From: Salsipaludibacter albus
GTDB lineage: Bacteria > Actinomycetota > Nitriliruptoria > Nitriliruptorales > Nitriliruptoraceae
Length of the DNA stretch: 58,634 bases
Assembly: GCF_019798055.1 (NCBI RefSeq)
Contig: NZ_JAHOPH010000023.1
Span: 1-58,634, forward strand
Direction: 5' to 3'
How positions within the stretch are numbered: position 1 is the stretch's first letter; every line of letters begins with the position of its first letter. The notes under the pieces were generated by a model. It ran no database searches and was not told the origin of the DNA. It saw only the letters and a program-made list of their open reading frames with translations. This document shows positions 1,561 to 38,438 of this stretch, piece by piece. Made by a program: the position numbers and the translations under genes.

Positions 1561-1592
1561 CTTATGGTCCGCTTACGCCCCCTCGGAAGGGT
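1561..1592 (+). promoter_or_regulatory. SARP-type direct-repeat promoter, site A
   Basis: Heptamers CTTATGG (1561-1567) and CTTACGC (1572-1578) are spaced 11 bp. The second is 8 bp upstream of AAGGGT (1587-1592), which fits a xAxxxT -10 box. The geometry is that known for SARP/AfsR operators. It would drive the ScyD-like gene, whose start lies 35 bp downstream. Confidence 0.65.
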
Positions 1593-1627
1593 GCAGAGCC
1601 ACATGCACCCGATCGAGAGGACGCAGG

Positions 1628-2668
1628 ATGACACCGCCAAGATCTCCAGAGCCACCCGACCACCGACGCGCCCACGGGCCGATTCGAACACTGGCCATCG
1701 TCGTCGCCCTCGTGTCGCTGCTCGTGCCCGTGACGGCGACCGCCGGGCCGGCCGAGAGGACACCGACCGTCACGACCGTGGTGACGGGCCTGCAGGGGGC
1801 CTCGGGCAGCACGATCGGTCCGGACGGCGCCCTGTACGTCGTCGAAGGGGCGGTCGGGGCCATCACTCGGATCGATCGCGAAACCGGCGCAGCCGAGACG
1901 TGGGCCACGGGCCTGCCCACTGCCGTGGCGGGGATCGGCGGAGTGGTCGACGTCGCGTTCCTGGACGGGGTCGCCCACGCCCTGGTCACGCTGGTCGGCG
2001 TGGACGTCGACGAGTCCAGCGACACCCGTGTCGGGCTCTACCGCATGGAGGCTGTCGACGAATGGACCGTGCTCGCGGACCTGGGCGCCCACGCGCAGGC
2101 CAACCCGCCGCCCGACGACCTGGACGTCATGGTCGCCTCCGGGGTCCACTTCGCGCTGGAGACCTGGCGGGGCGGGTTCCTGGTCACCGACGGCCACCTC
2201 AACCGCCTGCTGTCCATCTCGGCCGAGGGTGACGTCGACGGATTCCTGCAACTCGACAACGTGGTGCCGACCGGGCTGGAGGCACGTGGCAACGACGTCC
2301 TGGTGGCCCTGGCCGGTCCGGTGCCGCACGATCCCGCGGACGGACGCGTCGTGGATGTCGGCCACCACGACGGCGCGATGCGGGAGGTGGCTCGAGGGGC
2401 GCCCCTGCTCGTCGACGTCGAGTTCGGCCGCGGGCACGACCTGTTCGGCCTGGCGCAGGGCGAGTTCGTCCCGGGGACCACGCCGGGGTTCCCGCCGCTG
2501 CCCGCAACGGGGTCCCTGATGGTGGTGCGCGACGGCCAGTTCGTGGACGTGGTCGGGCCGTTGGACCTGCCCACGTCGCTCGAGGTCGTCGGCGGGACCG
2601 CGTGGATCGTCACGCTGACCGGCACCGTCCTCCGGGTGGACGACGCCGCCGCCCCGCCCGGACGCTGA
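1628..2668 (+). CDS. Secreted ScyD/ScyE-like beta-propeller protein
   Basis: A 346-residue exported protein. A hydrophobic signal segment (TLAIVVALVSLLVPVTATAG, about residues 20-40) follows a charged N-terminus. The mature part opens with VVTGLQGASGSTIGPDGALYVVE, the first blade motif of the ScyD/ScyE group of NHL/SMP-30-like propellers. Repeated blades such as VPTGLEARGNDVLVAL and GTAWIVTLTGTVLRV follow. The biochemical role of most of this family outside cyanobacterial scytonemin clusters is unknown, and no scytonemin genes are near. ATG 1628 was chosen because the signal peptide begins there and GAGGACGCAGG precedes it. SARP-type site A lies just upstream, linking the gene to the receptor island. 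Confidence 0.8.
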   Translation: MTPPRSPEPPDHRRAHGPIRTLAIVVALVSLLVPVTATAGPAERTPTVTTVVTGLQGASGSTIGPDGALYVVEGAVGAITRIDRETGAAETWATGLPTAVAGIGGVVDVAFLDGVAHALVTLVGVDVDESSDTRVGLYRMEAVDEWTVLADLGAHAQANPPPDDLDVMVASGVHFALETWRGGFLVTDGHLNRLLSISAEGDVDGFLQLDNVVPTGLEARGNDVLVALAGPVPHDPADGRVVDVGHHDGAMREVARGAPLLVDVEFGRGHDLFGLAQGEFVPGTTPGFPPLPATGSLMVVRDGQFVDVVGPLDLPTSLEVVGGTAWIVTLTGTVLRVDDAAAPPGR

Positions 2669-2677
2669 CCGATCGCC

Positions 2678-2711
2678 ACCGGCCCCGGGCGTCGTTCGCT
2701 CCGGGGCCGGT
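2678..2711. terminator. Bidirectional hairpin terminator
   Basis: An inverted repeat with 11-bp arms (ACCGGCCCCGG / CCGGGGCCGGT) and a 12-nt loop lies between the convergent propeller and dehydrogenase genes. There is no U-tract, which is common in high-GC actinomycetes. Confidence 0.6.
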
Positions 2712-2726
2712 CACGCCGTCGAGGGG

Positions 2727-3869
<1,143 letters not shown>

Positions 3870-4037
3870 GGAAGCTCCAAACTGTGGCGAACGGGATGTC
3901 GTGCCCTCACGACGGTACGAAGTGCCCGGTGAACGACCCGGCGTCGAACAGCGGGTGATCGAACGGTGGGGCACGACCGGGAATGTGCGTTCCGGGGCCT
4001 CTGGCGCACGATCCCGCCAGCGTGACGTCGAGGCGAA

Positions 4038-4101
4038 CTTTCGCTGCCCTTACCCGCTCGGGCCGGGGACTTTCGGTCCGCTTTCCCCCGTCGTGCACGT
4101 T
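4038..4101 (+). promoter_or_regulatory. SARP-type four-repeat promoter, site E
   Basis: Four heptamers, CTTTCGC (4038), CTTACCC (4049), CTTTCGG (4070) and CTTTCCC (4081), are spaced 11, 21 and 11 bp. The last lies 8 bp before CACGTT (4096-4101). The 11-21-11 layout is identical to site D upstream of the second EK-repeat gene. The target start codon is 53 bp downstream. Confidence 0.75.
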
Positions 4102-4154
4102 GCGATCCGTGCCGATGGAGCGACACCGTGTCGCAGGGGGCACAGGAGAGAACC

Positions 4155-4781
4155 ATGGGACAGCAAGCATCCGTGGGTGCGGCCGGGGGAGCCGCACTCG
4201 ATCAACGTGGAGGTGTCCGGGGGGTCGGCAAGCTCGTGCTGGCCGTCGCCGCGGGCGCCGTGGTCGGGGCCGGGCTCTACGCGGTCGTCGACCGGGTCGT
4301 GGACGACGGGGTGGCCGTGCAGGAGGCGGCCGTGGCCGTCGACGGCAACCGGGAGGCAGCGGCCGAGCTGGCACGGGAGAAGGCGGCGCTGTTGGCCGCC
4401 GGAGCCGGGGCCGGTGCCGTCGAGGTCGACTCGGCGGCTGACGCCGCCAACGTGCTGGCGCAGGAGAAGGCTGCGCTGGTGGTCGGCAGCGGAGGGGTCG
4501 TCCTGGACGTCGACTCGGCGGCCGACGCCGCCAACGCCCTTGCACGCGACCGGGCCGGCGTGTCGGTCGTCAGCGTGGACTCTGCCGCGGACGCCGCGAA
4601 CGTGCTGGCACAGGAGAAGGCCGCGCTCCGACAGGGCGCCGTTGCCTCCGGTGCCGCTGCGGCAGACGGCGCGAACGCCAAGGTCCGTGCGGACGCACAG
4701 GCCTCTGCGGCCCAGTCCGATGGGGGCGACGGGGCTGCGGCTGCCGAGGCCGCCAACCAGCTCCGGCGTTCCGGCGGATGA
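4155..4781 (+). CDS. EK-repeat single-span membrane protein 1
   Basis: A 208-residue protein with no family I recognise. A short cytoplasmic N-terminus is followed by one hydrophobic span (about 26-46). The tail is rich in Ala and Val and built from repeats: VDSAADAAN at 91, 119 and 141, and EKAAL at 75, 104 and 154, giving units like VDSAADAANVLAQEKAAL. The low proline and regular charge suggest helices. The ATG context (AACC-ATGGGACAG) matches that of the gene at 14275, and the two share the promoter layout, so they are probably paralogues. Its position beside the WD40 receptors and its operator suggest a regulated partner of those receptors (inference). Confidence 0.75.
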   Translation: MGQQASVGAAGGAALDQRGGVRGVGKLVLAVAAGAVVGAGLYAVVDRVVDDGVAVQEAAVAVDGNREAAAELAREKAALLAAGAGAGAVEVDSAADAANVLAQEKAALVVGSGGVVLDVDSAADAANALARDRAGVSVVSVDSAADAANVLAQEKAALRQGAVASGAAAADGANAKVRADAQASAAQSDGGDGAAAAEAANQLRRSGG

Positions 4782-4795
4782 GCCCGCCGACGTTC

Positions 4796-4833
4796 GATCG
4801 GGCGCCGGTCCATCCATGGGCCGGCGCCCGATC
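4796..4833. terminator. Strong hairpin terminator
   Basis: A 16-bp stem (one G-U pair) with arms GATCGGGCGCCGGTCC and GGGCCGGCGCCCGATC and a 6-nt loop. It sits 15 bp after the EK-repeat gene stop. No U-tract. Confidence 0.7.
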
Positions 4834-4854
4834 CGTTGCGCTCCTCGGCGGGGC

Positions 4855-4886
4855 CTTACGCCGGACTTATGGGGCTGGTGCATCGT
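4855..4886 (+). promoter_or_regulatory. SARP-type direct-repeat promoter, site B
   Basis: CTTACGC (4855-4861) and CTTATGG (4866-4872) are 11 bp apart. The second is 8 bp before CATCGT (4881-4886). The site lies 100 bp upstream of the first receptor gene and implies autoregulation. Confidence 0.65.
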
Positions 4887-4937
4887 CCTGGACGGACCAC
4901 GCAGCGACAGGAAACGACCCGGGTCGCGCGTGGGGAC

Positions 4938-4966
4938 TTCACGTCCGACGACGCGTCATCTAGGGT
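4938..4966 (+). promoter_or_regulatory. Second, constitutive-type promoter of receptor 1
   Basis: TTCACG (4938-4943), a 17-bp spacer and TAGGGT (4961-4966) precede the start codon at 4987. TAGGGT-like -10 boxes recur in front of other genes here. Receptor 2 has the same arrangement. Confidence 0.5.
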
Positions 4967-4986
4967 CATGGACGGGGACTGGGAGC

Positions 4987-7900
4987 ATGGGGATGCCAGA
5001 CCTGGATGTCACGCTCGCCGGAGCGGTGTCGCTGCGGCGTGGTGACCGGCGTGTCGGCGAGCGCGCCTTCGGGGCACGCCAGCTGCGGCTGGTGACGGCG
5101 ATGCTGGTGCTCGAGCGGGACGGGCCGGTGTCGATGGACCTCCTCGCCGACCAGTTGTGGCCCGACCAGCCACCGACCCAGTGGAGGGTCGCCGTCCGCG
5201 GACTGGTCAGCCAGTTCCGCCGTCGCCTGGTCGACCTGGGCATGGGGTCCGACAGCGTCGTGGGTGACCAGGGCCGCTACGTGCTCGACCTGGGAGAGGT
5301 GCGCGTCGACCTGGAGACGGCGGCGCACGACGTGGCCGACGGGCGCCGGGCCGTCGACGCCGGCGCGATCGAGCGGGCGTCCCTGCTGGCCGGCTCGGCG
5401 CGCTCGGTCCTGTCGCGGCCGGTGCTGTCCGGGGTCGAGTCCGAGTGGCTCGATCGGCTGCGGGACCGGGTCGCACGTGACCACCTGGAGTCCCTCGTCC
5501 TGCTGGGGGAGTGCCGGCGCCGTCTCGGGGCGCCGGCCGACGCCCGTCGCGTCCTGGCCGAGGCGATCGGGATCGACCCGCTGCGCGAGGACGCGTGGCG
5601 CGCCCTGATGCGGGCCGAGGCCGCGGCCGGCAACGTCGCCCGGGCGCTGGCGGCCTACGAGGACTGTCGTCGTCGACTGGCCGACGAGCTGGGCGTCGAC
5701 CCGGCCGAGGAGACCCAGCGCCTCCATGCCGAGCTCCTGCAGGGCGTGCCTGACCCCGACGTCCTGCCGTTCGCTCGACCACCGAAGACGGACCACTCGG
5801 TGGCCATCGCCAGTCGCGACCTGGTGCCCTACGTCGGGTTGCGGTCCTTCACGACGGCGGAGGCAGATCGGTTCTTCGGTCGGGACGCCGAGGTGCAGGC
5901 GTTGGTCGACCGGCTGGCGCGGCACGGCATCGTGGCGGTCGTGGGGCCGTCCGGCGTCGGCAAGTCCTCGCTGGTGCGGGCCGGGCTGTTGCCGGCCCTG
6001 GACCGCGGGGCCATCCCGGACGCCGACACGTGGCTGCCGGTCGTGATGACGCCCACGGCCGCCCCTGCAAAGGCGTTGTGGGCGGAGCTGGCCGAGGCCC
6101 GCCCCGGGGTCGACGAGGGCGTGGTCCGAGAGGCCGTGGTCGGCAGCGAGGACGGTCTCCACGACGCCGCGGGACTGGTGCTCGCCGATGCGCCGTCGAC
6201 GGCGCGGGTGCTGCTGGTGGTGGACCAGTTCGAGGAACTGTTCACGCTCGGGACCGCCGACCGGGCGGAGGCGTTCGTGGGGTTGCTGACGGCAGCGACG
6301 GCGCGTCTGGACCGCCGGGTCGTGGTGGTCGTGACACTGCGGGCCGACTTCTACGACCGCGCGGCCGACGTGGCCGGGATGGCCGACCTGCTGTCGCACT
6401 CGCAGTTCGTCGTGCCGCCACTCGAGGGTGACCAGGTCGAGGCCGCCATCGTCGGCCCGGCCCGGCACGTCGGGGTGAGCCTGGAGCCGGGCCTGCTCGG
6501 TCGGATCGTCGCCGACGTGGCCGGTGAGCCCGGGTCACTGCCGCTGCTGCAGCACCTGCTGTACGAGCTGTGGGAGCACCGGGTCGACCGGGTGCTGACC
6601 AGGGGTGCCTACGACGACCTGGGCGGGGTCACCGGAGCGCTGGCCCACCGCGCCGAGCAGGTCCACCTCGGTCTCGAGCGGGAGGAACGAGCCGTCGCGC
6701 GCCGGATCCTGCTCCGGGCCGTGCAACCCGGCGAGGAAGGTGGTGACGCGCGTCGACCGGTTCCCGAGGACGAGCTGTACGGGCCCGGGGACGACCCCGA
6801 GCAGGTCGACGGGGTCGTCCACCGGCTGGTCGACGCCCGGCTGCTGACCGCGGGGCAGGAGACCCCCGGGGAGGGTCGCACGTTCGAGCTGGCGCACGAG
6901 GCACTGATCGCCGCATGGCCCCGGTTGCGCGGCTGGGTCGACGAGGCGCGTGGCTGGCTGCTGGACCACCGCCGGCTGACCTTCGCCGCCCAGGAGTGGG
7001 TCACCCACGACCGCCAGGACGACTGGCTCCTGGGCGGGACGCCACTGGACGAGGCACACGCACTCGTCCTGGCCGACGGCCGTGGCGACGTCGACCTGCA
7101 CCTGTCGCCCGCCGAGCACGAACTCGTCCAGGCCTCGCTGGACGCCCGCGACCTCGTCCGGACCTGGGAGGCCGAGCGTCAGCAGCGCAGACGCGACCTC
7201 GAACGACGGTCGTTGCGACGTCTCCAGGCCCTCCTGGCCGTCGTCGCCGTCACGGCCCTCACCGCCGTCGCCCTGTGGTGGGACGCGCGCAGTGACAGCC
7301 GGGTGGCAGTCGTGCGCGAGCTGGTGACCGCGGCGAACGACAACGTGTCCAGTGACCCGCAGCGCAGCCTGCTGCTCGCGCTCGAGGCCGCAGATCGGGT
7401 CAGGCCGGGGGATGCGCTGGCGGTGTCCGTGGAGGACAGCCTGCACCGTGCCATCACCAGGAGTCGCATGTTGGGGTTCGTGGCCGGCACGGGCCCCGTC
7501 ATGTCCTACAGCCCGTCGGCGGACCTGTTGGCGACCATGCGTGAGGAACCTGACGGCGACGGCTGGTCGGTCGACCTCCGCGACGCGGCGACCGGCGACG
7601 TGCGAGACACGCTGTCGGGACACGGCGGCACCGGACCGGTCTGGGACGGCGAGTTTTCGACCGATGGCTCCGTCGTGGCCGTCGGGGACCGGGCCGGGCG
7701 CCTGACCTTGTGGGACACTGCCACGGCCCGACCCTCGGAAACTCTCGAGCGGCCCGGCACGCTCCCGACGCCACAGTCCTTCTCACCCGACCTGGACCTG
7801 CTCGCGATCACCTGGGCTCGCACCGAGGAGGACGCGGACGTCGAAGTGCTGTCGCTCGACCCGTTGCAGGTGCACCACGTCGTCGCCGACATCGAACTCG

Positions 7901-9474
7901 TGCCGACGGAGTCGAACGAGGACGCGCCCGGCACGGTCACGGTCTCCGCTGGCGGGGCGTGGTTCTCTCCGGACGGGTCCCGGATCGCCGTGACCTACCC
8001 CTCGATCGCTGCCGCACGAGGGGCCGCGGCGGTGCGGGTGCTCGACACGTCGACCTGGGAGACGGTCCTCGAGCTCGACGTCGACGCGCGGGAAGCGGCG
8101 TGGAGCCCGGACGGCGCCCTGCTCGCGCTCACCGGGTGGACCGGCTCCGTGGTGGTCGATTCCTCCACCGGTGAGGTCGTGCATGGCCTGCTGGGCAACA
8201 GTCGAGACGACGAGTTCCTGTCATGGAACGTCGACTCCACGCGACTGGCCAGCGGTCGGGGGTTGGTCTGGGACATGGTCGACCGGGACGCCGAGCCGAT
8301 CCGACTGACGGGCAGTGCCACGGGCCGCTGGGTGAGGTTCACCGACGATCCCGACGTGGTCGTGTCCACGGACCACGAGGACGTGGCGACGTTCGAGGTG
8401 TCCCGCCCGGGCCGGGGGGAGGTGACCACGCTCCCCGCGGACGGATGGACGTCGGGCCTCGACTGGACCCCCGACGGCCGGTCACTGGTCGTGAGTGCCG
8501 GTGAAGGCACCATCGCATCGTGGGAGGTGTCTGACTGGTCCCTGGGGGAGGTGGTGCAGGCACACCAGCCGGGAGCGTTCGACCCGGACGCCGAGGACAC
8601 ACCCGAGGAGGAGCCTGAGTGGCCCGCTGTCCTGTATGTCGACGTCAGTGACGACGGGAGCACGCTGACCACGGCAGGGTTCGACGACGTGGCCGTGTGG
8701 GATGCAGACGACCTCGACGAGCGGCACCGGATCGAGACCGGCGGGGGCTGGGAACCGTCGACGGTGAGCCCGGACGGCAGCCACGTCGCGACGGTCGACA
8801 ACGCATCCGACGCGATCGTGGTCGTCGACGCCGACGGCGAGGTGGTGTCGCGCATGCCGCAGCGACAGGACGTCATGGTCGAGAACCTGCGATTCAGCCC
8901 GGACGGGACGACGCTGGCCAGCACGATGGCCCCGGCGACCCAGGCACTTGGCAGTTCGACGCTGCGCGCCGTGAACCTGTGGGACTGGCGGACGGGAGAC
9001 CTGCTGGAGGCCATCGAGGCTTCGCCGATGTCCGTCGACTTCTCGCCGGACGGCCGGCACATCGCCGTTGCCGGCCTCGGCCTCGGCGTGTGGGACCGCC
9101 ACGTCGGGGACTGGGATCTGGAGATCCTCGACGACACGGAGTTCGTCAACGACGTCGACTGGCTCCCGGACGGGAGTCGCGTCGCGACCTGTGCCTTCGG
9201 GGAGCGGCTCGGGGGCGGCCAGGTGCAGGTGTGGGACGCGCGGACCGGCGACGAGCTGCTGCGACTGCACGACGACATCACGGGTTACTGCCGCGTGCGG
9301 GTGAGCCCCGACGGGCGTCATGTCGCGGTCTCCGACGGCGCACCGACGAGCTCGGTCTTCGTCTGGACGATGGACCACGACGAGGTGGTCGACATTGCCC
9401 GATCCCGTCTCGTTCGGTCGTGGACCCTGGAGGAGTGCCAGCAGTACCTGCGCACCGACACCTGCCCGGCCTGA
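4987..9474 (+). CDS. Receptor 1: SARP-like winged helix + BTAD + nSTAND NTPase + TM + WD40
   Basis: A 1495-residue putative one-component transmembrane regulator. Residues 22-98 form an OmpR/SARP-type winged helix, and about 100-245 are a BTAD domain ending in DELGVDPAEETQRLH. About 278-740 are an nSTAND-type NTPase, opening YVGLRSFTTAEADRFFGR, with Walker A GPSGVGKS at 320-327 and Walker B LLVVDQFEE near 410. One span at 746-765 follows the basic RRSLRR, so the C-terminus should be outside the cell. About 830-1460 hold WD40 blades (SPDG, LWD and VWD motifs), and the end is WTLEECQQYL..TCPA. DNA binding and the NTPase switch follow from the families; the outward WD40 sensor is inferred. ATG 4993 is an alternative start. 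An autoregulatory site precedes it. Confidence 0.88.
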   Translation: MGMPDLDVTLAGAVSLRRGDRRVGERAFGARQLRLVTAMLVLERDGPVSMDLLADQLWPDQPPTQWRVAVRGLVSQFRRRLVDLGMGSDSVVGDQGRYVLDLGEVRVDLETAAHDVADGRRAVDAGAIERASLLAGSARSVLSRPVLSGVESEWLDRLRDRVARDHLESLVLLGECRRRLGAPADARRVLAEAIGIDPLREDAWRALMRAEAAAGNVARALAAYEDCRRRLADELGVDPAEETQRLHAELLQGVPDPDVLPFARPPKTDHSVAIASRDLVPYVGLRSFTTAEADRFFGRDAEVQALVDRLARHGIVAVVGPSGVGKSSLVRAGLLPALDRGAIPDADTWLPVVMTPTAAPAKALWAELAEARPGVDEGVVREAVVGSEDGLHDAAGLVLADAPSTARVLLVVDQFEELFTLGTADRAEAFVGLLTAATARLDRRVVVVVTLRADFYDRAADVAGMADLLSHSQFVVPPLEGDQVEAAIVGPARHVGVSLEPGLLGRIVADVAGEPGSLPLLQHLLYELWEHRVDRVLTRGAYDDLGGVTGALAHRAEQVHLGLEREERAVARRILLRAVQPGEEGGDARRPVPEDELYGPGDDPEQVDGVVHRLVDARLLTAGQETPGEGRTFELAHEALIAAWPRLRGWVDEARGWLLDHRRLTFAAQEWVTHDRQDDWLLGGTPLDEAHALVLADGRGDVDLHLSPAEHELVQASLDARDLVRTWEAERQQRRRDLERRSLRRLQALLAVVAVTALTAVALWWDARSDSRVAVVRELVTAANDNVSSDPQRSLLLALEAADRVRPGDALAVSVEDSLHRAITRSRMLGFVAGTGPVMSYSPSADLLATMREEPDGDGWSVDLRDAATGDVRDTLSGHGGTGPVWDGEFSTDGSVVAVGDRAGRLTLWDTATARPSETLERPGTLPTPQSFSPDLDLLAITWARTEEDADVEVLSLDPLQVHHVVADIELVPTESNEDAPGTVTVSAGGAWFSPDGSRIAVTYPSIAAARGAAAVRVLDTSTWETVLELDVDAREAAWSPDGALLALTGWTGSVVVDSSTGEVVHGLLGNSRDDEFLSWNVDSTRLASGRGLVWDMVDRDAEPIRLTGSATGRWVRFTDDPDVVVSTDHEDVATFEVSRPGRGEVTTLPADGWTSGLDWTPDGRSLVVSAGEGTIASWEVSDWSLGEVVQAHQPGAFDPDAEDTPEEEPEWPAVLYVDVSDDGSTLTTAGFDDVAVWDADDLDERHRIETGGGWEPSTVSPDGSHVATVDNASDAIVVVDADGEVVSRMPQRQDVMVENLRFSPDGTTLASTMAPATQALGSSTLRAVNLWDWRTGDLLEAIEASPMSVDFSPDGRHIAVAGLGLGVWDRHVGDWDLEILDDTEFVNDVDWLPDGSRVATCAFGERLGGGQVQVWDARTGDELLRLHDDITGYCRVRVSPDGRHVAVSDGAPTSSVFVWTMDHDEVVDIARSRLVRSWTLEECQQYLRTDTCPA

Positions 9475-9496
9475 CACGGCGCACCTGCCAGGGTGG

Positions 9497-9528
9497 CTTA
9501 CCGGTGGCTTATCCGGCGCCGACATGCT
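9497..9528 (+). promoter_or_regulatory. SARP-type direct-repeat promoter, site C
   Basis: CTTACCG (9497-9503) and CTTATCC (9508-9514) are 11 bp apart. The second is 8 bp before CATGCT (9523-9528). It lies in the 146-bp gap between the two receptor genes. Confidence 0.65.
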
Positions 9529-9564
9529 CGCCACCACACACGATCACCACGGTGGCGCCGGGGC

Positions 9565-9593
9565 TTCCCATGTGCCCTCGATGCACCTAGGGT
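9565..9593 (+). promoter_or_regulatory. Second, constitutive-type promoter of receptor 2
   Basis: TTCCCA (9565-9570), 17 bp, then TAGGGT (9588-9593). It lies 27 bp upstream of the start codon and mirrors the arrangement in front of receptor 1. Confidence 0.5.
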
Positions 9594-9620
9594 CGGTCGA
9601 CGAGGGATCGGACACGGGGC

Positions 9621-12600
9621 ATGACGGACCTCGAGGTGACGCTGGCGGGAGCCGTCACGCTGCGACGTGGCGACCGTCGCGTCGGTGATCGCGCCTTCCG
9701 GGCGCGCCAGCTGCGACTGGTCACGGCACTCCTGGTGCTCGAACGGGCCGGTCCCGTGTCGGTCGACCTGCTGGCGGACGAACTGTGGCCCGGGACGCCA
9801 CCCGCTCGGTGGCGGGTGGCCGTGCGTGGACTGGTCAGCCAGTTCCGCGGACTGCTCGTGGACGTCGGGCTGGACCGGGACGCGATCGTGGGCGAACACG
9901 GTCGCTACCTCGTCGCGCTCGACCCGGTCCGCGTCGACCTCGAGGACGCCGTCGATGCCGTGGCACACGCTCGGGACTGTCTCGATGGTGGCCACGTCGA
10001 CCGAGCCGCGGCCGCGGCCGGCGCGGCTCGTGCCGTCCTGTCCCGACCCGTCCTGCCGGCCGTCGAGTCACCCCGGATCGAGCGACTGCGCGACCGGACA
10101 GCCGGCCAGCACCTGGACGCGCTGGTGGTGCTGGGCGTCGCCCGCAGCCGTGCCGGTGCGCACGAGCAGGCCAGGTCGGTGCTGACCGAGGCGACCGATC
10201 TCGACCCGCTCCGGGAGGATGCATGGCGCATGCTGATGGAGGCCGAGGCGGCCGGCGGGAACCCCGGCCGAGCACTGGCGGCCTACGAAGCGTGCCGTCG
10301 TGAACTCGCCGACGAGCTCGGTGTGGACCCTGCCGAGGAGACCCAGCGGCTGCATGCCGACATCTTGCGCGCGGTCCCGGACCCCGTTGAGCCGGTGGAA
10401 GTGCCCCCCGGTCCGTCCTCGGTCGTGGCTCCGGTCGTCCAGCGTCCCCCCTACGTGGGGCTGCGCGCCTTCACCGCCCGCGACGCCGACCGCTTCTTCG
10501 GCCGGGACGGCGAGGTCCAGGCGCTGGTCCAACGACTGGTCCGGCACGGGATCGTCGCCGTGGTGGGTCCGTCCGGCGTCGGGAAGTCGTCGCTGGTCCG
10601 GGCGGGGTTGCTGCCCGCGCTCGACCGCGGCGCCATCCCGGACGCCGACACGTGGGTGACCGTTGTCATGGTGCCGGGCAGCGACCCGCTGAAGGGTCTC
10701 GCGGCCGAGCTCGCGACGGTGGCCGACGCCACGGACGTCGGCGGGCTCGCGGACCAGCTCCGGGCCGACCACAACGGGTTGCACCGGGTGGCGGACCAAC
10801 TCCTCGCGGACCACCCTCCCAGCGCGCGGCTGCTGGTGGTGGTCGATCAGCTGGAGGAGCTCTTCACCCTCGGGGACCGCGCCCGCACCACGGCCTTCGT
10901 CGCCCTCCTGGAGGCCGCCACGGCTCGTCTCGATCGACGCGTGTCGGTGGTGGTCACGCTGCGGGCGGACTTCTACGACCGGGCTGCCGAGGTGGAGGGC
11001 CTGGCCGACCTGCTGTCGCACTCGCAGTTCGTGGTGCCGCCCATGGACGGTGAACAGGTCGAGGCGGCGATCGCCGGTCCGGCGCAACGGTCCGGCGCCA
11101 GCCTCGAGCCGGGCCTGCTCGGACGGATCGTGGCCGACGTGGCGTCCGAACCCGGCTCGCTCCCCCTGTTGCAACACCTGCTCTTCGAGTTGTGGGAGCA
11201 TCGCGTCGACCACGTCCTGACCCGGGGCGCGTACGAGGATCTCGGTGGCGTGGCGGGCGCCCTGGCCAATCGAGCGGAAGCGGTCCATGCGGGGCTCGAC
11301 CGCGACGAACGGGCCGTCGCGCGGCGGGTGCTGCTGCGCGGGGTGCAGCCGGGTGAGGACGGGGGCGACGCCAAGCGCCCGGTCGCCGAGGCCGAGCTGG
11401 TGGGACCCACCGACGATCGCGAGGCGGTCGAGGCCGTGGTCCAGCGACTGGTGGACGCCCGCCTGCTCGCGGCGTCCCACGATGCCGCGTCGGGCAGGAC
11501 CATCGAGCTGGCCCACGACGCGTTGATCGATGCCTGGCCGCGCCTGCGTGCCTGGGTCGACGAGGCTCGCGGCTGGCTGCTCGACCATCGCCGCCTGACG
11601 GTGGCGGCCCACGACTGGGACGCCCACGACCGCCACGAGGACTGGCTGCTGGCCGGCCTGCCGCTGGACGAGGCCCACGACCTGCTGCTCGCCGACGGGC
11701 GGGGCGAGGTCGACCTGCACCTGTCGCCGAGCGAGCACGAATTCGTGACCGCGTCACTCGCGGCACGCGACCACGACCTCGCCGTGGAACGGGGCCGCAT
11801 CGACCACGAGCGGCGGCTGGAGCGGCGCTCGGTCCGACGCCTGCAGGCACTGGTCGCCGTGGTCGTGGCCGTTGCGCTCGTTGCCGGTGCCCTGTGGTGG
11901 AACGCCGCGCGGGAGACACGCCGGGCGGGGGCGGCAGAGCTCGCGGCCACGGCGAACCAGGTGGCCACGCAGGCGCCACAGCTGGCCATGCTGCTCGGTT
12001 TGGAGGCACAGCGCCGGCTGGGATCGCTGGGAGGCGCCGCCCAGGACTCCGTGGACCAGGCCCTGCGCCGTGGCATCGCCGCGAACCGCCTGGTGTCGTG
12101 GACGCGAGACACGGGCCGGGTCCTGGCGGTCGATGCCTCCGGCGAGCTGTTCGCCGAGGCCGTGCCGGAGCCGGCCGCCGACGGGACGTGGCCGGTTCGG
12201 GTCCGTCGCACGTCGACGGGCGAGGTCCTGCACCGCCTCGACGGGCACACCGGAACCGGGCCCGCCTCGATCGCGGCCTTCAGTCCGGACTCGTCGACGC
12301 TGGCGGTCGGACCCCTCGACGGCGAGGGCGTCTTCCTGTGGGACCTCGGCTCGGGACAGCTCCTGCGCCGGTTGCCCTGCGACGCGGCCATCCACGACTG
12401 GTTCGCGTTCGCCCCCGATGGTCGGATGCTCGCCGGGACGCTCGGAAACGTCGGTGGCAGCCCTGTGGCGATCTGGGACGTCGAGTCCGGCGAGCGCCTG
12501 GCGACGCTCGAGCCGACCAGCGAGGAGATCCCCACGGACGTGAGCCCGCATGCGGTGTTCCATCCCGACGGACAAGTCCTGGCGCACCTGGACGCCATGG

Positions 12601-14117
12601 CCGAGAGCATCCGCGTGATCGACACGGCCACTTGGGAGGACGTCCGCGCGCCGCTGACCTACACGGAACCCACCGAGCTGGCGTTCAGCCCCGATGGTGC
12701 CTGGCTGGCCGTCGTGGCCGACGGGCAACTGCACGTCCTCGACGCCGCCTCGTTCGAGTCCGTGCTCACGATCGACACCGGCCTGCTCGACGTGTCTTGG
12801 AGCCCGCTCGCCTGGAGCGAGGACACGACGCGGATCGCCTTCGGGTCCGACCCGGTGCGCGTGTGGACCGTCGTCGAGGACGGGTCGGTGGTCCAGCCTG
12901 GCCGGCCGCTGGAGTTGCATGCACGATCGATGGACTGCTCCGTGTTCGCCTTCACGCCGGCCGTCGACCTCTGGGAGTACTCAGCGTGTGGGGAGGGTCT
13001 GCGGTCCTGGGACCTGGCGCCGGACGCGGGTGTCGAGGTGGCGTGGCTGCCGGGCACGCCCAACTGGCAGATGGGCATCGACTGGGCGCCGGACGGGTCA
13101 TGGCTCGCCGCGCCGGTCGACGAGGTGGACCTCGTGGTGTGGTCCACCGACACCTGGCAGCGGCAGACCGTGGTGCCCTCGGCCCACGATCTGGGTGACT
13201 GGACACCGGACCTCGCGCGGATCGCCAACCTCGACGTGTCGTCCGATGGCGAGACGGTCGTGACGGCCGGGCTCGACGACGTGGCGATCTGGGACACGTC
13301 GACGTGGGAGGCCACCCGCGTCGGCCGTGGCGGCTGGGCCACCGCAACCACCAGCCCCGACGGCTCGCTCGTGGCACATGCAGCCTTCACGCGTGACCTG
13401 CCGGAGGGCGACGACCGGCGGGTCTGGGTCGTCGACCGGGACGGGACGCAGCGGGCCGTGCTGGGCTGGGGGCAGAGCCTGTGGGTCGAGGACCTCGACT
13501 TCAGCCCGGACGGACGCCTGCTGGCCGTCGCGGCCTACGACACCGCCGACGTCGAGACGGCAGAGGCGGGGGTGTACGTCTGGGACTGGCAGGCCGAGCG
13601 CCTCCTCGGGGTGATCGACGCGGGGGACAGCACGGTGGCGACCGTCGACTGGGACACGTCCGGGACCCGATTGCTGCTGGCGACCCAGCGACCCGGCACC
13701 CGGGCGGAGGTGTGGGACGTCTCCGGCGTGGGGGCCGGAAGTGCCACTGGTGAGCGCGTCCCGGACGACCGCCTCCTCCTGACCATGGAGGGCCACACCG
13801 ACTGGGTGCAGGAGGCGGTCTGGAGCCCGGACGAGGCGACCGTGGCCACTTGCAGTGGCGACGGGACCGCTCGGCTGTGGGACACCGCCTCGGGCCACGA
13901 ACGGCAGCGACTCGTCGCCGACGGGCTGACCGGCTTCTGCCGGCTGCGATTCAGCCCCGACGGGACCATGCTGGCGCTGTCGGACTCCGGTGCCGGCGTG
14001 CGTGTCTTCACGCTGGAGTCCGATCGCCTCACCGGCATCGCCGAGGAGCGACTGGTGCGTGGCTGGACGCTCGAGGAGTGCCGGGAGTACCTCGACCTGG
14101 AGACGTGTCCGGCCTGA
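9621..14117 (+). CDS. Receptor 2: SARP-like winged helix + BTAD + nSTAND NTPase + TM + WD40
   Basis: A 1498-residue paralogue of the gene just upstream, colinear from the first residues (DLEVTLAGAVTLRRGDRRVG against DLDVTLAGAVSLRRGDRRVG). Winged helix and BTAD fill the first 245 residues, Walker A GPSGVGKS is at 316-323 and LLVVVDQLEELF is the Walker B region. A single span at 741-760 follows RRSVRR. WD40 blades follow, including a canonical one near the end (HTDWVQEAVWSPDEATVATC). It ends WTLEECREYL..TCPA. The cytoplasmic half is much better conserved between the paralogues than the propeller, as expected if they share operators but sense different ligands (inference). ATG 9621 is the only start matching the paralogue. 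Confidence 0.88.
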   Translation: MTDLEVTLAGAVTLRRGDRRVGDRAFRARQLRLVTALLVLERAGPVSVDLLADELWPGTPPARWRVAVRGLVSQFRGLLVDVGLDRDAIVGEHGRYLVALDPVRVDLEDAVDAVAHARDCLDGGHVDRAAAAAGAARAVLSRPVLPAVESPRIERLRDRTAGQHLDALVVLGVARSRAGAHEQARSVLTEATDLDPLREDAWRMLMEAEAAGGNPGRALAAYEACRRELADELGVDPAEETQRLHADILRAVPDPVEPVEVPPGPSSVVAPVVQRPPYVGLRAFTARDADRFFGRDGEVQALVQRLVRHGIVAVVGPSGVGKSSLVRAGLLPALDRGAIPDADTWVTVVMVPGSDPLKGLAAELATVADATDVGGLADQLRADHNGLHRVADQLLADHPPSARLLVVVDQLEELFTLGDRARTTAFVALLEAATARLDRRVSVVVTLRADFYDRAAEVEGLADLLSHSQFVVPPMDGEQVEAAIAGPAQRSGASLEPGLLGRIVADVASEPGSLPLLQHLLFELWEHRVDHVLTRGAYEDLGGVAGALANRAEAVHAGLDRDERAVARRVLLRGVQPGEDGGDAKRPVAEAELVGPTDDREAVEAVVQRLVDARLLAASHDAASGRTIELAHDALIDAWPRLRAWVDEARGWLLDHRRLTVAAHDWDAHDRHEDWLLAGLPLDEAHDLLLADGRGEVDLHLSPSEHEFVTASLAARDHDLAVERGRIDHERRLERRSVRRLQALVAVVVAVALVAGALWWNAARETRRAGAAELAATANQVATQAPQLAMLLGLEAQRRLGSLGGAAQDSVDQALRRGIAANRLVSWTRDTGRVLAVDASGELFAEAVPEPAADGTWPVRVRRTSTGEVLHRLDGHTGTGPASIAAFSPDSSTLAVGPLDGEGVFLWDLGSGQLLRRLPCDAAIHDWFAFAPDGRMLAGTLGNVGGSPVAIWDVESGERLATLEPTSEEIPTDVSPHAVFHPDGQVLAHLDAMAESIRVIDTATWEDVRAPLTYTEPTELAFSPDGAWLAVVADGQLHVLDAASFESVLTIDTGLLDVSWSPLAWSEDTTRIAFGSDPVRVWTVVEDGSVVQPGRPLELHARSMDCSVFAFTPAVDLWEYSACGEGLRSWDLAPDAGVEVAWLPGTPNWQMGIDWAPDGSWLAAPVDEVDLVVWSTDTWQRQTVVPSAHDLGDWTPDLARIANLDVSSDGETVVTAGLDDVAIWDTSTWEATRVGRGGWATATTSPDGSLVAHAAFTRDLPEGDDRRVWVVDRDGTQRAVLGWGQSLWVEDLDFSPDGRLLAVAAYDTADVETAEAGVYVWDWQAERLLGVIDAGDSTVATVDWDTSGTRLLLATQRPGTRAEVWDVSGVGAGSATGERVPDDRLLLTMEGHTDWVQEAVWSPDEATVATCSGDGTARLWDTASGHERQRLVADGLTGFCRLRFSPDGTMLALSDSGAGVRVFTLESDRLTGIAEERLVRGWTLEECREYLDLETCPA

Positions 14118-14159
14118 AGTCGCTGGATCCAATCCTTCATGCGCCGGATCTCGTCTCGA

Positions 14160-14223
14160 CTTACGGCTGGCTTGCGCTCGTCGCCGACCCACTTACGGCC
14201 AGGTTTCGTCCGTCCGGCATGGT
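14160..14223 (+). promoter_or_regulatory. SARP-type four-repeat promoter, site D
   Basis: CTTACGG (14160), CTTGCGC (14171), CTTACGG (14192) and GTTTCGT (14203) have starts spaced 11, 21 and 11 bp, exactly as in site E. The last is 8 bp before CATGGT (14218-14223). The target start codon is 51 bp downstream. Confidence 0.75.
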
Positions 14224-14274: not shown

Positions 14275-14763
14275 ATGGGACAGGTCACGACGCAACCACG
14301 GACGACCGACACCCCGGGCCCGGGCACGCGCGGGGCACGACGGGAGCAGCGGCAGGACTGGACCGAGGGCGGGCTGGGCGATGCCTGGCGGCTCGTCGCG
14401 TTCCTGTTCGCCGTCGCACTGGCGATCATGCTCGGCTGGCTGATCGGGGAGCGCGACACGGGGTCGGGGGCGGTCACGAGCGCCAGCGACGAGGCGGCCG
14501 CGATCAGCGGTGAGAAGGACGCGATGCTCGCCGCGGATGCCGTCGACGCCCTGTCGCAGGGCCAGGACGACGTCACGCTGCAGGACGAGAAGGACCAGCT
14601 GCTGGCCGCTGGCTCGGTCGCGGTCGGGACGGTGTCGTCCGGCGACGCCGTGCTGCAGGACGAGAAGATCGAGATCGCGGGTCGTTGGACCGGGCCGGCC
14701 GAACCCACGGCCACGTCGCCGCTCACCGAGCAGGACGAGAAGGAACTGCTGCTCGCCGGGTGA
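14275..14763 (+). CDS. EK-repeat single-span membrane protein 2
   Basis: A 162-residue protein of unknown family. A hydrophilic N-terminus (1-38) and one hydrophobic span (about 39-57, LVAFLFAVALAIMLGWLIG) precede a tail carrying the motif EK followed by LL or a similar pair. The Glu-Lys pairs start at 80, 105, 130 and 155, an exact 25-residue period (DEKDQLLAAG, DEKELLLAG). The protein ends two residues after the last motif. The start context AACC-ATGGGACAG equals that of the gene at 4155. It follows receptor 2 in the same direction and has its own four-repeat operator. It is probably the cognate partner or output of receptor 2 (inference). Confidence 0.75.
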   Translation: MGQVTTQPRTTDTPGPGTRGARREQRQDWTEGGLGDAWRLVAFLFAVALAIMLGWLIGERDTGSGAVTSASDEAAAISGEKDAMLAADAVDALSQGQDDVTLQDEKDQLLAAGSVAVGTVSSGDAVLQDEKIEIAGRWTGPAEPTATSPLTEQDEKELLLAG

Positions 14764-14945: not shown

Positions 14946-15410
14946 GTGAACACCCCACTGTTGTTCGACGCCGGCGCCCGGCAACGCCGGACCGCCGTCA
15001 TCCGTTTCCGACCCCCGGTCTCCGACCGCCCTGCCGGGACGGGTCGGGTTCGCCGACCACCGATCGCCCCCCGGACCTGGCGTTCCGTGGCCGTCTTCGT
15101 CGTGGTCGCGCTGGCCGTGGCCCTGCTCCTGGCCCGGCAGCCCGCGGCCCGCGTCGTCCTCGGCAACACCGCGGAGGAACAGCTCCTGATGGTCGAGAAG
15201 CAGGCACTCGTCGCCGGGTCGTCCCCGATTCGACGGTCGGAGGGCGCCTCGGACCTGGCCAGCGAGAAGGCCGAGTTGCTGCGACGTGGCCTCGACCCCG
15301 ACGCCGCTGCCACGGCCGCGCTCGTCGCACGCGGACTCGTGCCGCGCGACGCGTTCGACCGGGAGGCTGCCGACACGGCTGCCCTGGTTGCGCGTGGCCT
15401 GGTGCCTTGA
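14946..15410 (+). CDS. EK-repeat single-span membrane protein 3
   Basis: A 154-residue protein starting at GTG 14946. It has a basic, Arg-rich N-terminus (1-46), one membrane span (about 47-64, VAVFVVVALAVALLLA) and an outside tail. The tail holds two EK motifs (VEKQALVAG at 83 and SEKAELLRRG at 106) followed by two copies of TAALVARGLVP at 123 and 144. The topology and EK motif link it to the two other EK-repeat proteins. It lacks the SARP-type operator of the others, and only the 14839-14867 heptamers are upstream. The function is unknown. A 7-bp hairpin (CGCGGGA/TCCCGCG) lies about 25 bp before the start codon. Confidence 0.7.
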   Translation: MNTPLLFDAGARQRRTAVIRFRPPVSDRPAGTGRVRRPPIAPRTWRSVAVFVVVALAVALLLARQPAARVVLGNTAEEQLLMVEKQALVAGSSPIRRSEGASDLASEKAELLRRGLDPDAAATAALVARGLVPRDAFDREAADTAALVARGLVP

Positions 15411-15552: not shown

Positions 15553-16770
15553 TCACGCGGTGGCGTCCGGGAGGACCACGACGACCTCGGTCCCGCCACC
15601 ATCGCGGGGCCGGGCCGCGATCGTGCCGGAATGGGCCTCGACCAGCCGGCGCGCGATCGCCAGGCCCAGGCCCGACCCACCGGAGTCCGCCGACCGGACG
15701 AACCGGTCGAAGACGTGGGGCAGGTCGTCGGGGTCGATCCCGCTGCCGGTGTCGGCCACGACCAGCCGGAGTCCGGCCTCGTCCGTCGCCGACACGACCA
15801 CCTCGCCGCCGCGTGGGGTGTGGCGGACGGCATTGGTGAGGAGGTTGACCAGGACCTGCTCGATGCGCATCGGGTCGACCTCGACACGGCCCGGTGCCCC
15901 GGCCATGTCGGTTGCCACCGTGACACCCGCCTGGTGGGCGCGGTCACCGACGGCCCGGACGGCGGCGTCCACGATCGCGGACGGTGCGACCTCCTCGACC
16001 TCCATGTGCAGTGCGCCGGCCTCGGCGGTGGACAGGGTGGCGAGGTCGTCGAGCAGTCGTTCCAGCACGGCGACCTCGTCGACGACCGTCCGCAGGCGCG
16101 CAGGCTCGGCCTCGTAGACCCCGTCGAGCATCCCCTCGACATTGCCACGCACCACCGACATCGGCGTGCGCAGTTCGTGGGCGAGGTCGGCCAGCAGGGC
16201 CCGGCGGCGCCGCTCGTCGGTGTCGAGACGCTCGACCATCTCGTTGAAGGTGGCTGCGAGACGGCGGACCTCTCGTGGCCCCCGGGGATGGACCCGGATC
16301 GTCGTGTCGCCACCTCGGACGCGTTCGGCCGCGTCCATCACGTCGGCCAGGGGCGCGGCGAACCGACGGGCCAGGGCGATCCCGGTCGCGACCAGCACGA
16401 CGACGACGAGCACCAGCAGGCCGATTGCCCCGGCGACCGCGGCTCCGGTCGGGCCGTCGCCGAGCAGGCGCGACGTGATCGCGACGACGCCGACGACTGC
16501 GCCCAGCGCGACGACGAGGAACAGGATCGCCGCGCCGACGAAACCACGCAGGAACCGACGACGGACGTGCGGGGGAGGGCCGTGCCGACCGGCGCCGGGG
16601 TGGCCGCCCTGGGACCACCACGGCGGCGGACCGTGCTGCACCCAGGGGGGCCCGCGACCTGCCCAGGGTGGACCGCGATGTGACCATGCACCGTGCTGGT
16701 CCGAATCCCGTCGCGGGCCCGGGTCCTCGCTGGTCCACGGATCCTGCCCGTGGTCGCCGCGCTCACCCAT
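15553..16770 (-). CDS. Sensor histidine kinase with His/Pro/Trp-rich N-terminus
   Basis: A 405-residue membrane kinase that would phosphorylate the response regulator encoded just before it. Residues 1-70 are unusually rich in His, Pro, Gly and Trp. Two spans (about 77-100 and 109-134) are separated by fewer than ten residues, so there is no real extracytoplasmic sensor. A HAMP linker follows, then the H-box LADLAHELRTPM with the phosphorylated H198. The ATPase has an N-box (LVNLLTNAVRH), G1 (VADTGSGI) and G2 (GGSGLGLAIARRL). Its ATGGGTGA start overlaps the regulator's stop, implying translational coupling. The His-rich end and its neighbours suggest metal sensing (inference). Confidence 0.9.
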   Translation of the reverse strand: MGERGDHGQDPWTSEDPGPRRDSDQHGAWSHRGPPWAGRGPPWVQHGPPPWWSQGGHPGAGRHGPPPHVRRRFLRGFVGAAILFLVVALGAVVGVVAITSRLLGDGPTGAAVAGAIGLLVLVVVVLVATGIALARRFAAPLADVMDAAERVRGGDTTIRVHPRGPREVRRLAATFNEMVERLDTDERRRRALLADLAHELRTPMSVVRGNVEGMLDGVYEAEPARLRTVVDEVAVLERLLDDLATLSTAEAGALHMEVEEVAPSAIVDAAVRAVGDRAHQAGVTVATDMAGAPGRVEVDPMRIEQVLVNLLTNAVRHTPRGGEVVVSATDEAGLRLVVADTGSGIDPDDLPHVFDRFVRSADSGGSGLGLAIARRLVEAHSGTIAARPRDGGGTEVVVVLPDATA

Positions 16771-20519: not shown

Positions 20520-20551
20520 CCGGAGCGTCCCGCGCCGCGCCCATGTGGTGC

Positions 20552-20597
20552 ATCGTGTGCCGATCGCGTGCGTCGACGCACGCGAGGAGCACACGAT
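20552..20597. repeat. REP-like nested palindrome, copy A
   Basis: Outer arms ATCGTGTGC (20552-20560) and GCACACGAT (20589-20597) enclose the perfect palindrome GCGTGCGTCGACGCACGC (20566-20583), with GAGGA before the right arm. The design is the same as the copy at 51377-51424. It lies 33 bp after the ThyX-like stop and may also terminate transcription. The rest of 20520-20722 holds no gene. Confidence 0.6.
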
Positions 20598-20722
20598 CGG
20601 TCGACAACCGGCGCGGTTGGACGTATCGCGACGGCGTCCCGATGCCTCCCCGGAGGTGGCGGGGGATGGCACTATCGTGGTCGTCGGCCCGTCATGGCGA
20701 CGGGCCCGGGGAGCGACCGGAC

Positions 20723-36767: not shown

Positions 36768-38090
36768 TCAGCCCCGGTCGTTCGGGCGCGGCCGGAGGTG
36801 GTGGCTCGCACCCCAGCGCACCACCTGCTTGCCGATGCGGGCGGAGTCCTCGTCGGCCGTGCGGAAGTGGATGCCGGACCAGATGCGGGCGCTGACCACC
36901 TCGTCGAGCGCCGACGACAGGCTGGTGAAGGAGCGGGTCCGTCCGGACCCGTTGGTGTCCGTCCACCCGATCGCGTCGGTGTGGAAGAAGTCCCGCATGG
37001 TGGCGATCATCGAGCCGCTCAGTCCGAGGTGACCGGACGGGTGCTCGGGATAGGGCGGTGTCGGCAGCAGCGGGGTCCACCCCGGCTCCGGGCTGGTCCA
37101 CCGGTTGCCGTCGTCGCCCGCCTCCTCGATCGCGGTGATCGGGCGCCAGAACAGCCAGTGCGCCTTGGAGTCCCACACGGTGATCATCGCGTCCGCGGCA
37201 GACAGGTAGGCACGGGCGAACAGCAGCGCGTCGTCACCCACCTCCAGGTCGTGGTCGGTCGCGACCTGGCGCAGGACCCGACTCCAGATCGCCGGCGGGT
37301 TCTCGGCCCAGTAGCGCGCCGCCTCGGTCTGGTCGGCGGTCCTGACGTCGCTGTCGGTGCCACCGACCAGGCGGACCTCCTCGTAGTCACGTGCCCAGGT
37401 CGGGGTGTGCAGCGCCGGCGGTGGTCCGGAGCGGAACTGCTCGGCGCTGTCGACGAGGAACGGCCGGACCCTGGCGACCCACGCGTTGGGGTCGTTGCCG
37501 AACGAGGGCTCGACCGGACGCCACCCACCGATCGCGGTCGACGTCGGGAACCGGAACGGGCCGTAGCGGCCGTCGTCGCTGCGGTCGGCGACCATCGCGG
37601 CCGCGGCGGCGGCACCGACCGCCACGCCACGGTCACGGGACGGGCCGGCAGGCAGGGCCGCCAGGGCGTCGGACTCGAGCTGGTCGAGGATCGACGCCTG
37701 GTCGGGCACGACGGAGACGAGCACGTCGTGGGCCGCCGTGGCGACGGCGGCGTCCACCGAGTCGCCGGGGCCGCCCGCCGACCGGTCCAGCAGGTAGGGC
37801 TCGTACCCACCCCGGATCGCCACCACGGCGTCGTGCACGGCCCCGTGCACCATGGCGAGGTGGATGACGGCGACCGGGGGTCGTTGCCCGGCCCGTGTCA
37901 ACAGGGCGTCGGTGGCGTGGCGGTTCCAGTCGATGACCGGGTCGCCGGCGGCGGCGGCCGCGGGCGCAGGACCCGACCACGGTGTGGTGACGGTCGCCGC
38001 CAGCGTGGCGAGCACCAGCGCAACGAAGGCGATCGGTCGGCGTGATCGCTGTGGAGTGATGGGAGCGTCGATCGTTCTCATCGGTCTCAT
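36768..38090 (-). CDS. Secreted vanadium haloperoxidase-like / PAP2 superfamily protein
   Basis: A 440-residue exported protein with a signal peptide (FVALVLATLAATVTT...AAAAAGD, cleavage near 45). It belongs to the vanadium-dependent haloperoxidase/acid phosphatase superfamily. The vanadate- or phosphate-binding pattern is K in SKAHWLFWRPITAI, then HPSGHLGLSGS, then R-I-W-S-G-I-H-F-R with the catalytic His. Such proteins may halogenate organic compounds with peroxide or act as phosphatases; sequence does not decide. The start at 38090 follows GGAGG; 38081 is an alternative. Its promoter carries SARP-type site F, linking it to the receptors 24 kb away. Confidence 0.85.
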   Translation of the reverse strand: MRPMRTIDAPITPQRSRRPIAFVALVLATLAATVTTPWSGPAPAAAAAGDPVIDWNRHATDALLTRAGQRPPVAVIHLAMVHGAVHDAVVAIRGGYEPYLLDRSAGGPGDSVDAAVATAAHDVLVSVVPDQASILDQLESDALAALPAGPSRDRGVAVGAAAAAAMVADRSDDGRYGPFRFPTSTAIGGWRPVEPSFGNDPNAWVARVRPFLVDSAEQFRSGPPPALHTPTWARDYEEVRLVGGTDSDVRTADQTEAARYWAENPPAIWSRVLRQVATDHDLEVGDDALLFARAYLSAADAMITVWDSKAHWLFWRPITAIEEAGDDGNRWTSPEPGWTPLLPTPPYPEHPSGHLGLSGSMIATMRDFFHTDAIGWTDTNGSGRTRSFTSLSSALDEVVSARIWSGIHFRTADEDSARIGKQVVRWGASHHLRPRPNDRG

Positions 38091-38438
38091 CGGGGGGCCT
38101 CCAGTCGAGGGGTCGGCCCGATCCTTGGTGTCGGACCGCTTCGGATCGTGCACGGAGGGTGTAAGCCAGGGGAAAGCCGGTCCCGCCGACCGAGCGACGC
38201 GCACGACGAACCGGGTGTCGCGTGTCGTGACGAGCGCGGCCGTGGCGTTCGTCACCGGCTCTGCCGGGGTCGAACGCCGTCGGTGTCGCAGCCGTGGCGG
38301 CCTGTGGCTCAGCGTGGTGACGACCCCACCGAACGGCCCGGTCGGTGGCGGGCTGCCCAGCCGGGGCCCTCGTAGCCTCGGACGCACCCCCGCGTCGACG
38401 TCCTGGTCGACGGTGGTACCCGCGACAATCGGCGCCCC
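38091..38438. other. Gene-free divergent region
   Basis: These 348 bp separate the haloperoxidase-like gene from the small membrane protein gene. They hold SARP-type site F at 38145-38176. No gene and no other clear signal were seen. Confidence 0.5.
38145..38176 (-). promoter_or_regulatory. SARP-type direct-repeat promoter, site F
   Basis: On the minus strand CTTTCCC (38176-38170) and CTTACAC (38165-38159) are 11 bp apart. The second lies 8 bp before CACGAT (38150-38145). The start codon is 54 bp further on, close to the 51-53 bp of the EK-repeat genes. Confidence 0.65.

Follow-up and report, generated by a model that had tools for sequence, protein, structure and literature searches.

Candidate SARP-type operators beside two probably membrane-tethered STAND-WD40 receptors of Salsipaludibacter albus

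Introduction

To our knowledge, SARP regulators have been studied almost only as antibiotic switches. Their promoters follow a rule in which the repeats are 11 or 22 bp apart and the 3' repeat is 8 bp from the -10 element (PMC10936776). The 58,634-nt stretch of Salsipaludibacter albus DNA analyzed here (the window; GCF_019798055.1, contig NZ_JAHOPH010000023.1, forward strand) contains heptamer repeats with this geometry. The repeats are probably SARP operators of two receptors, B and C, encoded in the same window. The system is a variant within SARP/AfsR regulation, a mechanism known mainly from the control of antibiotics in Streptomyces.

The AfsR-afsS system of Streptomyces coelicolor resembles this locus in its SARP fold, its RNA polymerase contact residues, its STAND-type ATPase and its two 11-bp direct repeats located 8 bp before the -10 element (PMC10936776). 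AfsR has NOD and TPR domains and contacts bases through T88 and R92, whereas B and C have nSTAND1, a transmembrane (TM) helix, WD40, Gly and Gln in place of these two residues, and CTT[AT][CT]SS boxes. A further difference from AfsR is that their putative targets lie mostly next to them and include B and C themselves. The pathway SARPs (ActII-ORF4, DnrI) and the SARP-LALs (PimR) likewise use heptameric direct repeats, often with 4-nt spacers and sometimes more than two in number; their known targets are antibiotic clusters (PMC10972967), none of which is seen in the window.

The SARP domain of B and C has the same fold as EmbR of Mycobacterium tuberculosis (TM-score 0.85). EmbR is a SARP relative that is not known to be tied to antibiotic synthesis, and unlike B and C it carries an FHA domain and has no STAND, TM or WD40 part. 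Activators of the ToxR/CadC type have a cytoplasmic OmpR-type DNA-binding domain, one TM helix and an external sensor. B and C would work like these activators in general layout and are not classed with them here, as their DNA-binding domain would be separated from the membrane by BTAD and an nSTAND1 NTPase and their sensor would be the WD40 region. No report of a SARP joined to WD40 or nSTAND1 was found in the literature searched, which is no proof that none exists.

Operator sites and promoter geometry

Six intergenic regions carry eight pairs of CTT[A/T][C/T][G/C][C/G]-like heptamers, read directly and aligned in register, and within each pair the heptamer starts are 11 bp apart. The sites are as follows.

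1561..1592, plus strand: operator/promoter A, CTTATGG (1561-1567) tccg CTTACGC (1572-1578) cccctcgg AAGGGT (1587-1592), matrix score 26.9
4038..4055, plus strand: operator E, distal pair, CTTTCGC tgcc CTTACCC
4070..4101, plus strand: operator/promoter E, proximal pair, 8 bp and CACGTT (4096-4101), matrix score 26.0
4855..4886, plus strand: operator/promoter B, 5' of receptor B, CTTACGC cgga CTTATGG ggctggtg CATCGT (4881-4886), matrix score 28.2
9497..9528, plus strand: operator/promoter C, 5' of receptor C, CTTACCG gtgg CTTATCC ggcgccga CATGCT (9523-9528), matrix score 27.0
14160..14177, plus strand: operator D, distal pair, CTTACGG ctgg CTTGCGC
14192..14223, plus strand: operator/promoter D, proximal pair, 8 bp and CATGGT (14218-14223), matrix score 24.9
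38145..38176, minus strand: operator/promoter F, CTTTCCC ctgg CTTACAC cctccgtg CACGAT (38150-38145), matrix score 25.8

The initial annotation had described six such operators before neighbors of the receptors. Its six sites are at the coordinates that it gave, and the spacings and hexamers were also read correctly. The number of heptamer pairs is eight instead of six since E and D are double: each has a second pair at a distance of exactly 32 bp (4038/4070 and 14160/14192), with the hexamer after the proximal pair in both cases. F is no neighbor, as it lies 24 kb from receptor C. Boxes A to E are all intergenic, and intergenic DNA makes up 7% of the locus.

The consensus over the 16 heptamer units is C (15/16) T T A/T C/T G/C C/G. 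Departures from the strict heptamer occur at D-proximal (GTTTCGT), D-distal (CTTGCGC) and F (CTTACAC). The heptamers, spacers and flanks vary between sites, and the spacing is constant. At all six window promoters and at both proximal boxes of a sister species, the one other genome of the genus analyzed, the second heptamer is followed after 8 bp by a hexamer fitting NANNNT (8/8 proximal boxes). At any other offset from 0 to 44 this hexamer is found at fewer than 3 of the 8 boxes, and in 20,000 shuffles the count never exceeds 4/8 at any of 30 offsets. The exact 8-bp placement noted in the initial annotation is therefore borne out, and the geometry matches the published repeats 11 bp apart with 8 bp to the -10 element (PMC10936776).

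Confinement to the locus and conservation in a sister species

The two strands of the window together have 17 copies of the motif CTTWYSS, of which the boxes account for 13. Distances of up to 60 bp between copies take only the values 11 (five times), 21, 32 (three times) and 43, with about 0.0025 pairs expected per distance. The initial annotation proposed a genome scan for enrichment, and the result is in its favor. The strict full pattern has four matches in the whole genome (4.25 Mb), all in the window, and the reversed control has none. Allowing one mismatch adds only F and a match on contig C6; among 66 genomes of the class, the sole other exact match is on an AT-rich contig (G016). These two off-window matches were rejected because both are inside coding sequences. 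The genome-wide scans were made by pattern and not by weight matrix.

The sister species has a homologue of B and C on contig C194. It is preceded by one gene for a protein with repeated [DE]EKxxLLxxG motifs (EK motifs), mirroring E before B. When a matrix trained on the window is run over 18 kb of this locus, the top three scores are the proximal box of the EK gene (20.5), the box of the receptor (17.2) and the distal box of the EK gene (11.9); the next score is 7.0. This test is fairer evidence than the pattern counts because the pattern was written from the window sites. The proximal box of the EK gene is CTTACGT tcat CTTCCAG gcgtccgg CACGGT and that of the receptor is CTTACCA cggg GTTACCG agtgctgc CACTGT, so both have 8 bp followed by CANNNT. 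The distal box is 31 bp from the proximal box in the sister species and 32 bp in the window. A search of genome contigs for further relatives gave only distant Amycolatopsis and Acidobacteriota matches.

The receptors and their recognition helix

4993..9474, plus strand: receptor B (receptor 1), 1493 residues, SARP (winged helix and BTAD at 105-249), nSTAND1 at 279-676, predicted TM segment at about 744-762, WD40 to the C-terminus
9621..14117, plus strand: receptor C (receptor 2), 1498 residues, with the architecture of receptor B and an identical recognition helix

B and C are 70% identical over SARP-nSTAND1 and 37% over the WD40 part. Pfam BTAD is found at 105-249 with E values of 4.8e-26 and 2.7e-23, and nSTAND1 (PF20703) is matched at full length with 393-403 bits and a conserved Walker A motif, GPSGVGKSS. 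The modeled SARP domain has a pLDDT of 95 and its best PDB matches are EmbR (0.85) and AfsR (8k60, TM-score 0.80). By the winged helix and BTAD of this predicted N-terminal part, B and C are SARP regulators, as the initial annotation had recognized. The NB-ARC and TPR domains of the large SARPs that have been reviewed are replaced by nSTAND1 and WD40. B and C each have one strong hydrophobic segment between nSTAND1 and WD40 that is flanked by Arg-rich sequence on the nSTAND1 side; one strong segment with an Arg-rich flank is also seen in paralogue C54, G033 and G007. B and C are thus probably membrane-tethered (SARP-nSTAND1-TM-WD40), and because of the Arg-rich flank the WD40 part is suggested to be outside and the SARP part inside.

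The contact residues of AfsR were taken from PMC10936776. B and C share Q48, W74, P79, R87, S91, R94, D71, R173, R240, L243, D245, E246, L247, V249, D250 and L263 with AfsR, and most of the AfsR residues touching the DNA backbone, sigma region 4 and alphaCTD are retained. E176 is not. The two base-specific residues of AfsR are altered, Thr88 to Gly and Arg92 to Gln. The recognition helix is WRVAVRGLVSQFR in both receptors; since the helices are identical, B and C should share operators.

The residue at the T88 position is associated with the box. All seven receptors of the subfamily with Gly at this position (B, C, the sister-species receptor, G033, G050, G007 and G025) carry a TTAY-N7-TTAY repeat no more than 155 bp upstream, compared with 0/6 of those with another residue and upstream sequence to hand. 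Paralogue C54 is left out of this count since its contig ends at its start codon. G039, a SARP of a different subfamily, has Gly at the T88 position and no box. If the link between helix residue and operator holds, SARP targets would be predictable from sequence.

Two other types of repeat were seen near SARP genes, and both observations were made after the fact. Paralogue C32, with Ser at the T88 position, has CTTGCGC tcgc CTCGCGC ccgtcagg CACCGT located 50 bp before the ATG of a divergent secreted-protein gene (L060:7899-7930, minus strand); by the criteria used, 9% of random 300-bp windows contain a candidate of this type. Small SARPs with Val or Ala at this position, where the helix is readable, are divergent from a gene for a short cysteine-containing protein (MSxAKVIxCPCGYxLHG). 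These loci have CCAA-N7-CCAA repeats, and at about 7 of the 11 loci NANNNT follows 8 bp on. In several genera there are CCAAC-type repeats at a distance of 11 bp, followed after 8 bp by CATNCT (L102:1092, L045:2259, L101:7650, L147:1029 and others).

A wider reading can be put forward tentatively. The members of a class-wide SARP family, including membrane-tethered SARP-STAND-WD40 receptors, may each use the fixed 11-bp/8-bp frame to drive a few genes, either their own or neighboring ones, with the heptamer set by one helix residue (Gly: CTTAC; Val/Ala: CCAAC; Ser: CTTGC/CTCGC). If true, it would provide a readable specificity code for SARPs beyond antibiotic regulation.

The genome holds at least two further full SARP-nSTAND1 paralogues, C54 and C32. 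The boxes could be SARP operators of which one of these paralogues is the main user, or at which the receptors repress, given that activation is not proven by operator position alone. This is unlikely, as the specificity position is occupied by Leu in C54 and by Ser in C32 instead of Gly, and C32 has a different candidate box of its own. Moreover, the spacing between box and hexamer is that of an activator, and the boxes are beside B and C.

Weighing of the evidence

At the sequence level, the assignment of the boxes to B and C is based on the operator architecture, which is confined to the locus and conserved in the sister species, and on the association of the operator with the recognition helix; the SARP fold is a predicted model. 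Several observations weigh against it. The putative -10 element is CANNNT at 5/6 window sites and not the usual TANNNT. Since the search pattern was derived from the tested sites, the pattern counts are partly circular. AfsR residues R59 and T63 are not retained in B and C, and paralogue C32 has no TM segment. The sister receptor gene (L057:9476-12474) is interrupted, with the WD40 part in another frame and several hundred residues missing, which is either a broken gene or an error of the draft assembly. Finally, in G033, G050, G025 and G007 the repeat is reversed, faces a divergent gene and has no NANNNT at +8. On this evidence the motif is tied to receptors across families, but the full promoter rule is seen only within the genus.

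The reversed CTTACG/ATTACG pairs are located 110-150 bp 5' of the receptors of other genera (L061:3128, L099:1977, L064:9563 and L062:9875, all on the minus strand). By eye, the divergent gene that they face encodes an ECF sigma factor in G033 and G050; in G007 it encodes a small TM protein.

The promoter set of the initial annotation is also incomplete for the receptor genes, since B and C each have a second, ordinary-looking promoter nearer the start codon.

4938..4966, plus strand: probable second promoter of receptor B, by sequence, TTCACG-17-TAGGGT (TAGGGT at 4961-4966)
9565..9593, plus strand: probable second promoter of receptor C, by sequence, TTCCCA-17-TAGGGT (TAGGGT at 9588-9593)

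The TAGGGT hexamers are 26-27 bp 5' of both receptor start codons, and the near-start TAGGGT is kept in C and the sister species. The receptors might therefore bind the boxes while transcription starts elsewhere, for example at these promoters, with NANNNT not a -10 element and the 8-bp rule the result of another constraint. That most hexamers begin with C and not T, and that the hexamer is missing in distant relatives, would fit. Nevertheless, this is quite unlikely, since NANNNT is found at a single offset in every proximal box and no shuffle approaches that count. By eye, A, D, E and F have no equally clear second promoter. For E, D, F and the EK gene of the sister species, the hexamer is also at a nearly constant distance of 51-54 bp from the start codon. 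This distance is 35 for A (35 nt from the hexamer end to the ATG) and about 92-106 bp for the receptor genes, in which the TAGGGT promoter sits in between.

OmpR/PhoP-type regulators likewise use repeats about 11 bp apart, and an OmpR-family response regulator (16763-17488) and its kinase (15553-16776) are encoded 1-3 kb from D. The pair is also near the sister-species receptor (71%/68% identical). Binding of the boxes by this response regulator is very unlikely. Its own upstream region has no box, and it would leave the association of Gly88 with the box and the SARP-specific 8-bp spacing unexplained. The pair was not found in the loci fetched around the box-bearing receptors of G033, G025, G007 and G050, some of which are short, and the response regulator was rejected as the binder because of this absence in other genera.

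E and D might stem from a gene duplication, but chance or repeat copying without a regulatory role is extremely improbable, as the sequence of the boxes varies while the spacing is fixed, and the boxes are absent from the rest of the genome and conserved in the sister species.

Proposed mechanism

As SARP operators of B and C, the boxes would each bind two SARP protomers side by side on one heptamer pair, which would replace the -35 box and hold sigma region 4. RNA polymerase would then start from the NANNNT hexamer 8 bp downstream. By analogy with AfsR, the receptors most likely activate these promoters. At the double operators E and D, two dimers may be bound three helical turns apart. In the probable topology, one TM helix separates an external WD40 part from the NTPase and SARP on the inner side. 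An outside ligand could switch the nSTAND1 ATPase and allow the SARP parts to dimerize on DNA, comparable to AfsR, in which inhibition is relieved by ATP binding.

Because their recognition helices are identical and their WD40 parts have diverged, B and C probably convey different signals to a common regulon. Each receptor gene would have a basal TAGGGT promoter and a SARP-driven promoter, suggesting positive feedback and self-amplification. The EK proteins, whose genes are next to those of the receptors, are candidate signals. As outputs, the regulon would have A, E, D and F, which are predicted to be exported or to sit in the membrane.

Putative target genes and neighborhood

1628..2668, plus strand: gene A, 346 residues, probably exported, ScyD/ScyE-family (NF033206, 85.6 bits, cut-off 80), N-terminal signal-like segment
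4155..4781, plus strand: gene E, 208-residue single-TM protein with repeated EKAALLAxG-type motifs
14275..14763, plus strand: gene D, 162-residue paralogue of E with one TM segment and DEKxxLLAAG-type motifs
14946..15410, plus strand: D2, a third paralogue with one TM segment and EK motifs, lacking its own box
36768..38090, minus strand: gene F, 440 residues, probably exported, weak vanadium chloroperoxidase match (VCPO_2nd, E 1.2e-5, just under the curated cut-off)

Except for the receptors, each putative target (A, E, D and F) is predicted to be exported or membrane-bound. No homologue of gene A was found in 40 relatives, and no orthologue of A or F in the sister species. A paralogue of gene F on contig C3 (60% identical) has no box upstream. 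The EK proteins (E, D, D2 and L057:8658-9287 of the sister species) are always beside receptors and have clear matches in this genus only; the structure model of the EK-motif protein, at pLDDT 59, is of too low quality for interpretation.

The putative regulon is local and includes both receptor genes. Other genes of the contig encode FtsK, RodZ, RecA, IPP transferase, RNase J and a PEP-utilizing enzyme. No biosynthetic core enzyme or antibiotic cluster was recognized among the annotated genes of the 58-kb contig, which encode housekeeping, membrane and exported proteins. These results support the proposal of the initial annotation that this is a receptor-operator regulon apart from antibiotic synthesis. 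SARP promoter logic appears to be used here for self-contained receptor regulons whose outputs are exported and which have no antibiotic cluster nearby. A bacterial STAND-WD40 receptor, a kind that usually lacks a known output, would thereby be linked to a defined set of target genes, so that a simple reporter could be used to look for its signal.

A defense-system reading of the locus was rejected because PADLOC gave only marginal P-loop matches. A large CHAT-domain protein with TPRs is encoded at 20120-23257 of the window, about 5 kb downstream of the EK-motif genes.

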